Positions 6,796 to 41,422 of a stretch of 64,000 nt of DNA are shown in pieces. Each line of letters begins with the position of its first letter. Position 1 is the stretch's first letter. A model generated the notes under the pieces. That model was not told the origin of the DNA. It did no database searches and was given only the letters and a program-made list of their open reading frames with translations. The position numbers were made by a program, and so were the translations under genes. The stretch lies in the NCBI GenBank assembly GCA_019454145.1, contig CP075366.1, forward strand, positions 785,564 through 849,563, given 5' to 3'. This stretch comes from Fimbriimonadaceae bacterium. Lineage in GTDB: Bacteria; Armatimonadota; Fimbriimonadia; Fimbriimonadales; Fimbriimonadaceae.

Positions 6796-6837
6796 TAGCC
6801 CCCTCTCCGTTTTAATAGAGAGGGGTTAGGGGTGAGG
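6796..6837 (+). repeat. Family B palindromic repeat with G-rich tail
   Basis: This is the inverted repeat CCCCTCTCC...AGAGAGGGG followed by the tail TTAGGGGTGAGG. The same arrangement recurs at 20931, 33244 and 39627. Confidence 0.85.
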
Positions 6838-7287: not shown

Positions 7288-7670
7288 TAATAAGTGCGTT
7301 AAAACCAGTGCCGTACAAGATAAACCATATTCCCGCCCCAAGGATTGGGGAGGGTGGCCCGAGAATCGGGTCGGGAGGGGTTGATTAGAAGATTTTGTAA
7401 GTAACAACCCCTCTCTCAATCTCCCCCCAACCATGGAGGGAGAAGCGAAGCCGAAAACTTTTGTATACACGAGCCGAAACCCGTGCCACTCAAGACTCAA
7501 CACTTTCCCTCCCCGAGATCGGGGAGGGTTAGGGTGGGGTTGATGCAACTGTTGAACCTCTCCTTCCCCAGGTTTACTGATGGAATTCAGCTTCCCTACC
7601 TTTGACTTTCAAAGGTAGGGGAACCCACAAGTAAAAATTCCCTCCCAATTCTGGGAGGGCTAGGAAGGCT
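7288..7670. repeat. Intergenic cluster of degenerate family A and B repeats
   Basis: The 424 bases between the YjbR gene and hpd hold no convincing gene. They contain a degenerate family A unit near 7293-7313, another (CACGAGCC...CCCGTG plus CCA) at 7468-7488, and several family B units (about 7333-7384, 7401-7443, 7503-7545 and 7641-7670). A separate palindrome at about 7597-7619 reads CTACCTTTG...CAAAGGTAG. An open frame of 95 codons here is made of repeat sequence and is not a gene. Confidence 0.8.
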
Positions 7671-20930: not shown

Positions 20931-20975
20931 ATCCCCCTCTCCGTTTTAATGGAGAGGGGGAAATAGGGGGTGAGG
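20931..20975 (+). repeat. Family B palindromic repeat, possible rho terminator
   Basis: A perfect CCCCCTCTCC...GGAGAGGGGG stem around GTTTTAAT, with the tail AAATAGGGGGTGAGG. It lies 8 bases after the rho stop and 7 before the convergent gene end. Confidence 0.85.
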
Positions 20976-33243: not shown

Positions 33244-33353
33244 AGTTGCAAACTTTAACCCCGCCCCTGCCCCTCCCCAGAATTGGGGAGGGAAATAAAA
33301 GCCCCCTCTCCGTTTAAATGGAGAGGGGGTTGGGGGGTGAGGTCAGACCTCAC
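33244..33353. repeat. Back-to-back family B repeats
   Basis: One unit in inverted orientation (tail first, then CCCCTCCCC...GGGGAGGG, about 33258-33295) is followed by one in direct orientation (CCCCCTCTCC...GGAGAGGGGG, then the tail TTGGGGGGTGAGGT). They end in the palindrome GTGAGGTCAGACCTCAC at 33337-33353. There is no gene here. Confidence 0.85.
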
Positions 33354-33405: not shown

Positions 33406-34677
33406 ATGAACCTCGACGTCACCTACCCGCGCCGCGCCACGAAACCTTGCCGAGTGGGCAACATCACTATGGGCAACGGGCACCCGGTGGTAGTTCAGAG
33501 CATGATCACCGAAGAAACCCGCAACATCGAAGCGTGCGTCGAGCAGATCATTGCCCTGCACAAAGTGGGTTCCGAAATCGTCCGTGTCACTACCCCGACT
33601 CTCGGCGAAGCGAGTTGCCTCGAGGAAATCAAAGCAAAAGTCCGCGAGCGCCACGAAGATGTCCCGATGACCGCCGACGTGCACCACCAAGGCACTAAGA
33701 TCGCGGTGGAAGCGGCTAAATACGTGGATGAAATCCGGGTCAATCCTGGCCTATTTGTATTCAAACGGCACGGTTCCCGCGGCGAACAAACCGGCACCGA
33801 CAACGGCGATATGCGTGGCCGCACTGAAGAAGATTTAACCAGCGTGGAAGCGCTCCGGTCACAATTAGCTTATTCGGAAACCGAATGGAATAACGAGATC
33901 GCCGCGATAGAAGAAGACTTTGTTCCAGTTGTAGAAGCCTGCAAGAAGTACGACCGCGCCATGCGAGTCGGCGTGAACCATGGTTCGCTTTCCGAACGAA
34001 TTCTCATCACCTACGGCGATACTCCGCGAGGCTTGGTGGAGTCGGCGCTGGAATACCTGCGTATCTGCGAAAAGCACGGCTACTTCAACCTCAATATCTC
34101 CGCCAAGGCCAGCCGAGTTCCGGTGATGATCGCTGCCAACCGCATGATGGCGATGCGCCTAGATGAAGAAGGCATGAACTACCCGCTCCACCTCGGCGTG
34201 ACCGAAGCCGGCGACGGGCAGTATGCACGCATCAAGTCCACCGCCGGGATCGCTACCCTGCTCGCGGAAGGAATCGGTGACACGATTCGGGTGAGTCTGA
34301 GCGAAGACCCGATCAACGAAATCCCCGCGTGTTACGAGATTCTGCAGGCCATGAACCTGCGCAAAACCCAGGTGGAATACATCGCCTGCCCCAGTTGTGG
34401 ACGCACCAAGTTCGATCTACCGAGCGTGCTGAACAAAGTTCGCGACGCCACGCGCCACCTCAAGGGGCTGGATATCGCCGTGATGGGCTGTATTGTCAAC
34501 GGCCCGGGTGAAATGGCCGATGCTGATTACGGCTATGTCGGCGCGGCGGGCGGCAAAATCACGCTGTACCGCAAACGCGATGTTGTTAAGTCAGGGATTC
34601 CACAAGAGCATGGGGTAGAAGAGTTAGTCAATCTTCTGAAGGCTGACGGGGTTTGGAATGAACCGAGTGTGGTTTAG
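33406..34677 (+). CDS. ispG: 4-hydroxy-3-methylbut-2-enyl diphosphate synthase (IspG/GcpE)
   Basis: This [4Fe-4S] enzyme of the MEP isoprenoid pathway reduces MEcPP to HMBPP. The TIM-barrel part has [20 protein letters not shown] and [13 protein letters not shown]. The cluster-binding part has Cys328, Cys331 (CPSCGR), Cys362 (GCIVNGPGE) and Glu369. The length of 423 is normal. The final residues (NEPSVV) differ from those of a second copy of the 3' end found at 35342-35500 (VWR then stop). The stop overlaps the convergent toxin stop by 4 bases. Confidence 0.96.
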
Positions 34678-35338: not shown

Positions 35339-35341
35339 AGC

Positions 35342-35500
35342 TCGGGTGAAATGGTCGACGCCGATTACGGCTATGTCGGCGCGGCGGGCGGCAAAATCAC
35401 TTTGTATCGCAAGCGGGATGTGGTCAAGTCCGGCATTCCGCAGGAGCATGGAGTGGAAGAGTTGGTGAATCTTCTGAAGGCTGACGGGGTTTGGAGGTAG
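35342..35500 (+). pseudogene. Detached 3' end of a second ispG copy
   Basis: The plus strand encodes 52 residues identical to the IspG C-terminus except one Ala to Val change (start [17 protein letters not shown], end LLKADGVWR then TAG). Over 51 codons it differs from the intact gene by 18 bases, 17 of them synonymous. The last 28 shared bases are identical (34630-34657 and 35468-35495). No start codon or upstream gene body exists. This is a remnant with the signature of a once-functional, diverged allele. Confidence 0.92.
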
Positions 35501-37647: not shown

Positions 37648-37671
37648 GGGTGGCACTGGTTTTAACCAGTG
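37648..37671 (-). repeat. Family A repeat, left flank of the transposase gene (inverted)
   Basis: GGGTGG followed by the perfect palindrome CACTGGTTTTAACCAGTG. In minus orientation it matches the family consensus with a compensated change in both arms (CGGG to CTGG and CCCG to CCAG). Confidence 0.88.
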
Positions 37672-37700: not shown

Positions 37701-38189
37701 GTGTTCCCGACTTATCCGGCCAAGACCAAGACTCGGAAGTCATTTGATATTCCAGGCCATGTTCACGAACTAACTTTCAGTACAAAGAATCGCCATCAGT
37801 TTCTTGCTAAGCCCGAAATCGCTAACTACTTTGTTGAAAATCTGGATAGCGTTCGAAAAGTACATGATCTCGAAATACTTGCTTATGTTGTAATGCCTGA
37901 ACACTGCCATATCCTCATCTTGCCTAATCATGAACACTATTCAATATCAAAAATCCTACGTGTGGCTAAGGCGCCAGTGGCACTATATGCTTTGAAGCAA
38001 TATCCAGAATTAAGAGAGCAATGTGCAGTTGTTAAGCAAGATGGTTTAACTACTTACCAGTTCTGGCAACCAGGGGGAGGCTACGATCGAAATATGTGGA
38101 CAGACGAGGCAATTCAGAACAGCATTGCTTACATTCACAATAATCCAGTGAAGCGTTGCTTAAGCACTACCCCAGAAGATTGGCCCTAG
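37701..38189 (+). CDS. REP-associated tyrosine transposase (RAYT, Y1 family)
   Basis: This single-domain Y1/HUH nuclease related to IS200/IS605 TnpA is of the type that maintains REP palindromes. The N-terminus has IPGHVHELTFSTKNRHQFL. The HUH motif is His68-Cys69-His70 (VVMPEHCHILIL). The nucleophile is probably Tyr144 in IAYIHNNPVKR. The length of 162 is typical. GTG is the start. Two family A palindromes flank it in opposite orientation, at 30 bases on the left and 36 on the right, as expected for a RAYT with its own REPs. Confidence 0.92.
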   Translation: MFPTYPAKTKTRKSFDIPGHVHELTFSTKNRHQFLAKPEIANYFVENLDSVRKVHDLEILAYVVMPEHCHILILPNHEHYSISKILRVAKAPVALYALKQYPELREQCAVVKQDGLTTYQFWQPGGGYDRNMWTDEAIQNSIAYIHNNPVKRCLSTTPEDWP

Positions 38190-38225: not shown

Positions 38226-38249
38226 CACGGGTTAAAACCCGTGCCACCC
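38226..38249 (+). repeat. Family A repeat, right flank of the transposase gene
   Basis: CACGGGTTAAAACCCGTG is a perfect palindrome followed by CCACCC. It is opposite in orientation to the left-flank copy, so the tails point outward from the transposase gene. Confidence 0.9.
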
Positions 38250-39626: not shown

Positions 39627-39675
39627 CCTACTCCCCCTCTCCGTTTCAATGGAGAGGGGGCCGGGGGGTGAGGTT
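39627..39675 (+). repeat. Family B palindromic repeat
   Basis: CCCCCTCTCC...GGAGAGGGGG with the tail CCGGGGGGTGAGG. It lies 10 bases after the rplL stop, directly before the intrinsic terminator. Confidence 0.85.
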
Positions 39676-39770: not shown

Positions 39771-39816
39771 CAATCTCCCTCCCCAAGCCTGGGGAGGGAT
39801 TAGGGGTGGGGTTGAT
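39771..39816 (+). repeat. Family B repeat at the 3' end of the DUF559 gene
   Basis: CTCCCTCCCC...GGGGAGGG plus the tail TTAGGGGTGGGGTTGATC. The stop codon and last residues of the DUF559 frame lie in this tail. It is opposite in orientation to the unit at 40172-40216. Confidence 0.88.
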
Positions 39817-40162
39817 CAGAACTCTCGTAAATAATCTGAGCGATGCGCGAAGGGTTCTCAAGTGCTTCTATATTAGAAAATCGAAGAACACGCCAGCCAA
39901 GTCCTTCGAGAATCGACTGCCTCTCCTCATCGTGCAGAAGTCTTGAGTCATCGTGACTCTGACCATCTATTTCAATTACGATCCTTGCCTTTATGCAGGC
40001 AAAATCAGCAATATAATTTTCTATAGCGTATTGCCTTCGGACTCGAATTCCAAGTTCACGAAGTTTACGAACTTCCTGCCAGACCAAAACTTATGCGACA
40101 GTCATACGACTTCGGTTCCCTTTTGCTAGATTTTTGGCTTGTGGCGTGGCAGTTCGTCGCAT
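39800..40162 (-). pseudogene. DUF559 endonuclease-like gene broken by one TAA codon
   Basis: From ATG 40162 the frame reads MRRTATPQAKNLAKGNRSRM then TVA, meets TAA at 40093-40091, and goes on in the same frame with VLVWQEVRKLRELGIRVRRQ. It continues through the DUF559 core (YIADFACIKARIVIEIDGQSHDD, then GWRVLRF) to 39800. DUF559 proteins normally read MTxAExLLWxxLR at this spot, so the TAA sits where Glu (GAA) is expected. The intact length would be 120 residues. The family is related to Vsr-like nucleases. It is flanked by inverted family B palindromes. Confidence 0.85.
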
Positions 40163-40171
40163 TGCTCGAAG

Positions 40172-40216
40172 ATTTAACCCCACCCCTGCCCCTCCCCATT
40201 TCATTGGTGAGGGAGA
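40172..40216 (-). repeat. Family B repeat upstream of the DUF559 gene (inverted)
   Basis: AACCCCACCCCTGCCCCTCC followed by a degenerate GGTGAGGGAG arm. The tail faces the DUF559 gene, mirroring the unit at 39771-39816. Confidence 0.8.
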
Positions 40217-40297: not shown

Positions 40298-40342
40298 TCT
40301 CCCTCCCCAAGCATGGGGAGGGATTAAGGGTGGGGTTGACTA
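40298..40342 (+). repeat. Family B palindromic repeat
   Basis: CTCCCTCCCCAAGCATGGGG followed by AGGGATTAAGGGTGGGGTTG. It is nearly identical to the unit at 39771, 480 bases away, and is in the same orientation. Confidence 0.88.
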
Positions 40343-41380: not shown

Positions 41381-41422
41381 TACCCCCTCCCCTGCCCCTC
41401 CCCAGAATTGGGGAGGGAAATC
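41381..41422 (-). repeat. Family B repeat (inverted)
   Basis: TACCCCCTCCCCTGCCCCTC followed by CCCAGAATTGGGGAGGG. It lies between two inverted family A units. Confidence 0.82.

Follow-up and report, generated by a model that had tools for sequence, protein, structure and literature searches.

Does a nuclease-like gene of the DUF559 family that lies between two facing palindromes belong to a mobile system of its own? This question is raised by a locus in the window, the stretch of 64,000 nucleotides that we analyzed from the genome of a Fimbriimonadaceae bacterium (contig CP075366.1), for which a first-pass annotation had proposed a second REP-like system running parallel to a RAYT. To our knowledge, the RAYT proteins (HUH transposases) are so far the only enzyme class tied to the dispersal of palindromic repeats in bacteria. 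We favor, with a probability of roughly 60%, the reading that the element is REPtron-like, distinct from the RAYT, and driven by a nuclease resembling Vsr, which recognizes the folded form of its own repeat unit. The features of the window on which the analysis draws are the following.

37701–38189, + strand: RAYT-like Y1 transposase (PF01797), a parallel system in its own right, bracketed by inverted repeats of its own at about 37648–37671 and 38226–38249
39776–39811, + strand: left unit (Y arm, loop, R arm, spacer, mirror tail), tail toward the gene
39800–40162, − strand: DUF559 gene (PF04480, 97.8 bits) of the Vsr-like PD-(D/E)XK nuclease family, broken
40091–40093, − strand: in-frame TAA at an invariant Glu (from translation and family alignment)
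40178–40213, − strand: right unit, opposing the left unit, one stem mismatch
40299–40334, + strand: third unit, same subtype as the left unit (90% identity over 51 nt)
39632–39671, + strand: solo unit after rplL, CCCCTCTCC subtype, cognate to DUF559 locus L003 and conserved in the sister genome G004
41384–41418, − strand: solo triplex-type unit
33259–33293, − strand: solo triplex-type unit
33301–33340, + strand: solo triplex-type unit, CCCCTCTCC subtype
20932–20973, + strand: solo triplex-type unit, CCCCTCTCC subtype
6799–6836, + strand: solo triplex-type unit, CCCCTCTCC subtype
7408–7443, − strand: solo triplex-type unit
7506–7539, + strand: solo triplex-type unit

Both palindromes that had been placed at 39771–39816 and 40172–40216 were located, and they face each other with their tails directed toward the DUF559 gene. 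The left unit is composed of the pyrimidine (Y) arm TCCCTCCCC, the loop AAGCCT, the purine (R) arm GGGGAGGGA, the spacer TTA and the mirror tail GGGGTGGGG, while the right unit reads CCCTCACC-AATGAAAT-GGGGAGGG-GCAG-GGGTGGGG; the third unit is positioned just beyond the element. The DUF559 frame between the facing units, itself situated between rplL and a CBM9-like gene, was recognized as PF04480 when its in-frame stop was scored as X. On the opposite strand, its terminal TAA codon (39800–39802) coincides with the spacer TTA that precedes the mirror tail of the left unit. To be added to its description is the single in-frame TAA that interrupts the gene, in place of a Glu that is invariant in the family (E24 of alignment A3). 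The window copy is therefore a pseudogene, or at best a 95-amino-acid remnant with a TTG start codon, and hence a broken member of its element class.

The RAYT-like gene of the window possesses its own repeat of a different type (GGGTGGCACTGGTTTTAACCAGTG / CACGGGTTAAAACCCGTGCCACCC), and two systems therefore coexist in this stretch of DNA. The facing repeats of the RAYT belong to the CACGGGTTnnAACCCGTGCCACCC family, of which the window contains several further copies; the CCCCTCTCC repeats, on the other hand, are cognate to the DUF559 element L003 located elsewhere in the genome and not to the RAYT. No Y1_Tnp match was found in the DUF559 gene of the window (it matches PF04480 instead), and the GTAG or CGTC tag by which REP sequences are defined (PMC3733652) is absent from the window units. 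Since both the enzyme and the tag are wrong for a RAYT, the element is not one. We also considered whether the CGTC REPs that lack a transposase (PMC3733652) are identical with these repeats, and rejected this; their stems and tags, in the form given by that paper, differ.

Enrichment of inverted repeats in the flanks of DUF559 genes had been set beforehand as the test of the proposal. We sampled DUF559 loci from the genus, the family, the phylum and other phyla, compared the 300 bp on either side of each gene and took the best inverted match between the two as flank score, a score of at least 30 being counted as positive. Inverted matching flanks were present at 56 of the 82 DUF559 loci, but at none of 30 ParE loci from the same phylum and at only two of 175 other open reading frames of the surveyed loci; the RAYT genes that served as positive control scored in 10 of 12 cases. 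The outcome that would have spoken against the proposal, DUF559 genes no richer in such flanks than other genes, did not arise. Among the named organisms of a plasmid collection, seven of 14 DUF559 loci reached a score of at least 40 [Sinorhizobium pSymB (208), Pseudanabaena, two Deinococcus, two Sphingomonas and Azospirillum]. About one-third of the DUF559 genes lack flanking units, and one genome (G026) carries four DUF559 genes (L191–L194) without bracketing units, yet has 67 triplex motifs. At two loci (L023, L024; genomes G002, G001), a CCA tRNA nucleotidyltransferase-like gene carries an in-frame DUF559 domain at its N-terminal end, and the repeat-derived peptides PSPDGEG and PPPPPGEDLGGG are translated between and inside.

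Each element has its own repeat subtype. Where a genome has several elements, the left flank matches the right flank of its own locus in 70% of the comparisons vs. 18% when loci are mixed, and the similarity of the repeats correlates with that of the DUF559 proteins (Mantel r = 0.29, p = 0.002; 68 loci), distant proteins included. The genome from which the window stems (G000; a 2.76-Mb single contig of the same genus as the Fimbriimonadaceae MAG JAHBTE01) contains three DUF559 genes, all of them bracketed by facing units and each with a subtype of its own: CCCTCCCCAAGNNTGGGGAGGG at the window locus (L001), CCCTCCCCGAAGWTCGGGGAGGG at L002 and CCCTCTCCGTTTNAATGGAGAGGG at L003. Forty-eight of the 61 strict palindromes in this genome belong to these three resident subtypes (30, 7, and 11, respectively), and six more represent a subtype whose DUF559 gene is located in the sister genome G004; a reversed control pattern gave no matches. 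The window alone holds 11 triplex-type units, while shuffled windows have a mean of 0. When searched against Rfam at the gathering threshold, the repeats of the window and of five named loci had no match. A third palindrome family, CCCTACCTTTGnnnCAAAGGTAGGGGCAC, is found beside DUF559-type units in the window (about 7590–7625) and near positions 134527 and 145328 of the genome. The window also carries a 156-nt direct repeat with 88% identity (34502–34657 and 35340–35495).

In the repeat units, a pyrimidine arm, a loop and a purine arm are followed by a spacer of 1–6 nt and a G-rich tail; in many alphaproteobacterial and planctomycete units the spacer is a hairpin. The tail mirrors the 3′ purine arm, at times with A exchanged for T. 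Among 38 unrelated units, the mirror match of an arm to its own tail was 0.776 vs. 0.692 for the tails of other units (p = 5e-5), and in the clearest cases the tail base opposite an A of the arm was T 10 times, A 12 times and C once. A direct-repeat relation between tail and arm showed no specificity in the control test (p 0.08–0.24), and this interpretation was rejected. Judged from its sequence, the mirror tail fits the requirement of a fold-back purine-motif (reverse-Hoogsteen) triplex with G.GC, A.AT, and T.AT triplets, and as a single strand the unit should thus fold into a triple helix. The G runs could permit a G-quadruplex as well; we regard it only as an alternative fold, because a quadruplex gives no reason to expect A at the mirrored position. 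A detector for the triplex motif was positive in 66 of 102 DUF559 loci, with a density of 2.39 per kb of flank as compared to 0.035 per kb in the background of the surveyed loci; ParE loci were negative throughout (0/30), and a single RAYT locus of 12 was positive.

This anatomy leads to the BoxC/PIT/TM_ECO repeats, which were described in E. coli and number 3610 across 262 proteobacterial genomes (PMC4666352). An E. coli TM_ECO oligonucleotide forms a triplex in vitro, the only sequence for which this has been reported, and neither a function nor an associated mobile element was found for these repeats (PMC4666352). The strict TM_ECO consensus has 9-nt stems and a 3-nt second loop; in the window units the stems are for the most part 8 nt long and the tails read GGGG(T)GGGG, and other DUF559 units, such as that at L274, lie far nearer to this consensus. 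The ycjD gene of E. coli K-12 encodes a DUF559 protein and is followed by a BoxC repeat about 170 bp beyond its stop codon, and the C-terminal RRSPSP of YcjD seems to be encoded by a degenerate unit. DUF559 genes of Klebsiella and Lelliottia, found at other loci, have the same 3′ arrangement as ycjD, and in the Enterobacteriaceae that we examined units occur only on this side of the gene. The E. coli strains lacking ycjD offered no clean empty site; here, efflux genes follow sapF. Collectively, we consider DUF559 to be probably the spreader of these repeats, which are widespread and include the E. coli BoxC.

Signs of mobility were found at the window locus itself. The rplL-CBM9 synteny is common to four genomes (G000, G004, G003, G007), but the element resides only in G000; at this site G004 possesses one unit of another subtype, and a comparable unit is lacking from G003 and G007. 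The gene and all three of its cognate units are thus jointly missing in the relatives. When 41 unit clusters were checked against G004, 11 had no counterpart palindrome there, although some of these sites hold diverged remnants or rearranged sequence. Two clean solo insertions in reading frames (L130 at position 146319 and L132 at 187563 of G000) add peptides to the encoded proteins. At L130 VESKVGDLMVLG becomes VESVVALTSPPQSPSPLKRRGGSLVVLG and at L132 GDENRFFIPP becomes GETSPPNPLSIETERGSRYFIPP, different frames of the unit being read. The targets of these two inserts, GACCT/GAT and AACC/GAT, resemble the end of the tail. Neither a target-site duplication nor a sharp target rule was clear from these only two clean empty sites, and since the comparison of G001 with G002 provided no further clean case, we do not claim a target-site rule. 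In other phyla, DUF559 genes are inserted within operons such as sufB-sufC and paaD-paaZ; on a plasmid of Sphingomonas parapaucimobilis (L279), a DUF559 element is positioned between sufB and sufC, 2 bp in front of the latter. An ortholog pair of DUF559 genes (L002/L030) has a dN/dS ratio of 0.047 and hence, in this one pair, evolves under purifying selection.

An AlphaFold2 model of the DUF559 protein (pLDDT 90.6) consists of a single 120-residue domain, the nuclease domain, to which no extended DNA-binding modules are joined. Its fold matches NGO0050 (3hrl; Z 14.7), the catalytic domain of the homing endonuclease I-Bth0305I (Z 12.3) and Vsr (1cw0; Z 10.6), and the resemblance to Vsr-type nucleases put forward from the sequence alone is thereby borne out. 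Sequence profiles agree with the fold (I-Bth0305I profile match, E 1.3e-5). Twelve residues are invariant in 25 DUF559 sequences, among them E24, D53, E64, D66, and H70; the catalytic-domain fold and the conserved acidic and His residues of the EDxHD homing endonucleases are consequently present in the family, with one invariant Glu missing from the window copy. In Caulobacter, the DUF559 protein VsrA has been tied to mismatch repair and DNA damage (PMC12907096).

From these data we infer a small mobile element in which two units point at a DUF559 gene, each unit comprising a 35–45-nt palindrome, a short spacer or hairpin and the G-rich mirror tail. A single strand of the unit would fold back as a purine-motif (reverse-Hoogsteen) triplex hairpin, and the DUF559 protein would recognize its own unit subtype, most plausibly in the form of a folded single strand that replication exposes, and cut at or beside it. 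Repair or strand transfer could then copy the whole element, and far more often a lone unit, to a new place; the dispersed repeats would be what such copying leaves behind, and the lone units the non-autonomous offspring. For the broadest version of this proposal, namely a phylum-spanning, transposon-like class in which a Vsr-like nuclease mobilizes repeats via a fold-back triplex and is the source of BoxC-type repeats, we see about even odds.

The main rival sees in DUF559 a selfish nuclease of the homing type, which cleaves repeats that are already there and places a copy of its own gene in the break, while the repeats spread by other means. The fold and profile match to I-Bth0305I speak for it, and so does the retention of BoxC in E. 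coli strains without ycjD. Some genomes, moreover, are rich in units and devoid of DUF559: ten such genomes carry at least 10 triplex motifs, and in one of them (G050; 97% complete) we found 194 motifs and no DUF559 gene, so that the link between repeat and gene is not absolute. Most of the G050 motifs belong to one subtype, some of them in tandem arrays with a period of about 93–104 bp. Against homing stands the finding that repeat number follows DUF559, and not RAYT, across genomes. In the 81 genomes of the family the median number of palindromes is 13 with DUF559 and 1 without it (p = 5e-7, uncorrected for shared ancestry). Among 144 genomes of the phylum, outside the family, that have either a strong DUF559 match or none, at least five triplex motifs were present in 42 of 67 with the gene vs. 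12 of 77 without it (odds ratio 9.1, p = 6e-9, likewise uncorrected for shared ancestry). Homing is also at odds with the presence of the gene's own subtype on both its sides, with the co-variation of repeats and protein, and with the joint absence of gene and cognate units from the rplL-CBM9 site of the relatives. We therefore judge it unlikely, though it is the alternative to be taken most seriously.

Appreciably less probable still is a repair function, in which a Vsr-like DUF559 nuclease resolves or nicks non-B structures of the repeats and its co-location with them is selected rather than transpositional. The Vsr fold, the ties of Caulobacter VsrA to DNA damage and the association of triplex repeats with genetic instability (PMC4666352) are consistent with this idea; however, it predicts neither the bracketing by facing cognate copies, nor several elements with different subtypes in one genome, nor insertion within operons and genes. 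We give yet less credence to the view that a RAYT or another transposase mobilizes the repeats and that DUF559 is a passenger. The window RAYT is indeed only 1.6 kb away from the element, but it has its own repeat, the triplex motif occurs in the flanks of only one of 12 RAYT loci, and five genomes (G002, G003, G005, G083, G247) contain DUF559 together with 22–79 palindromes in the absence of any Y1 transposase. RAYT presence does not explain repeat copy number, the RAYT was accordingly rejected as the driver of the DUF559-flanking repeats, and the proposal of a second system parallel to it is supported. Finally, a role of the repeats as terminators or regulatory hairpins, which would bracket the gene through short gene spacing, agrees with their palindromic and mostly intergenic nature, but is already contradicted by the control genes of similar size, which show no such flanks, and by the units lying in frame within genes, and can be set aside.

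If the nuclease-driven reading is right, the BoxC/TM triplex repeats, previously without a known mover, gain a named candidate gene, DUF559 (ycjD in E. coli), and the mirror-tail rule connects the triplex fold of the repeat with an enzyme. It would further suggest what the large and functionally unassigned DUF559 family does, and what drives the insertions that add peptides within bacterial genes. In the open-licence PMC literature, which our search covered, we found no published link between DUF559 and repeats.

How does the element relate to known systems? With the EDxHD homing endonuclease I-Bth0305I, DUF559 shares the fold of the catalytic domain, profile homology and, putatively, a selfish nature. 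Unlike it, DUF559 has no intron or intein host and no additional DNA-binding modules, is bracketed by dispersed repeats, and falls far below the known homing endonucleases in size; lacking the intron and the extra binding domain, it is therefore not a typical member of that group. The fold is shared with Vsr as well, and Caulobacter VsrA carries a DUF559 domain, but Vsr is not known to be bracketed by mobile repeats. The in-frame units in protein genes (positions 146319 and 187563 of G000) recall the rickettsial palindromic elements, which are of another sequence class, whereas the DUF559 repeats are tied to a candidate driver gene. REPtrons with their RAYT genes are similar in that a small gene is bracketed by facing cognate palindromes, at frequencies of 10/12 (RAYT) and 56/82 (DUF559), and in their dispersed lone units and unit pairs. 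They differ in that DUF559 is a PD-(D/E)XK Vsr-like nuclease rather than a HUH Y1 transposase and that its units have a mirror tail and no GTAG/CGTC tag. BoxC/PIT/TM_ECO repeats, in turn, share the pyrimidine arm, the loop, the purine arm, the short spacer (often TTA), the mirrored purine tail and the A/T exchange, and several DUF559 units, L040 and L274 among them, are near to or fit the BoxC consensus. While BoxC was reported without an associated mobile gene (PMC4666352), the present class is tied to DUF559, includes a form whose spacer is a hairpin, and reaches the Armatimonadota, Planctomycetota, Deinococcota, Cyanobacteria, and Alphaproteobacteria.
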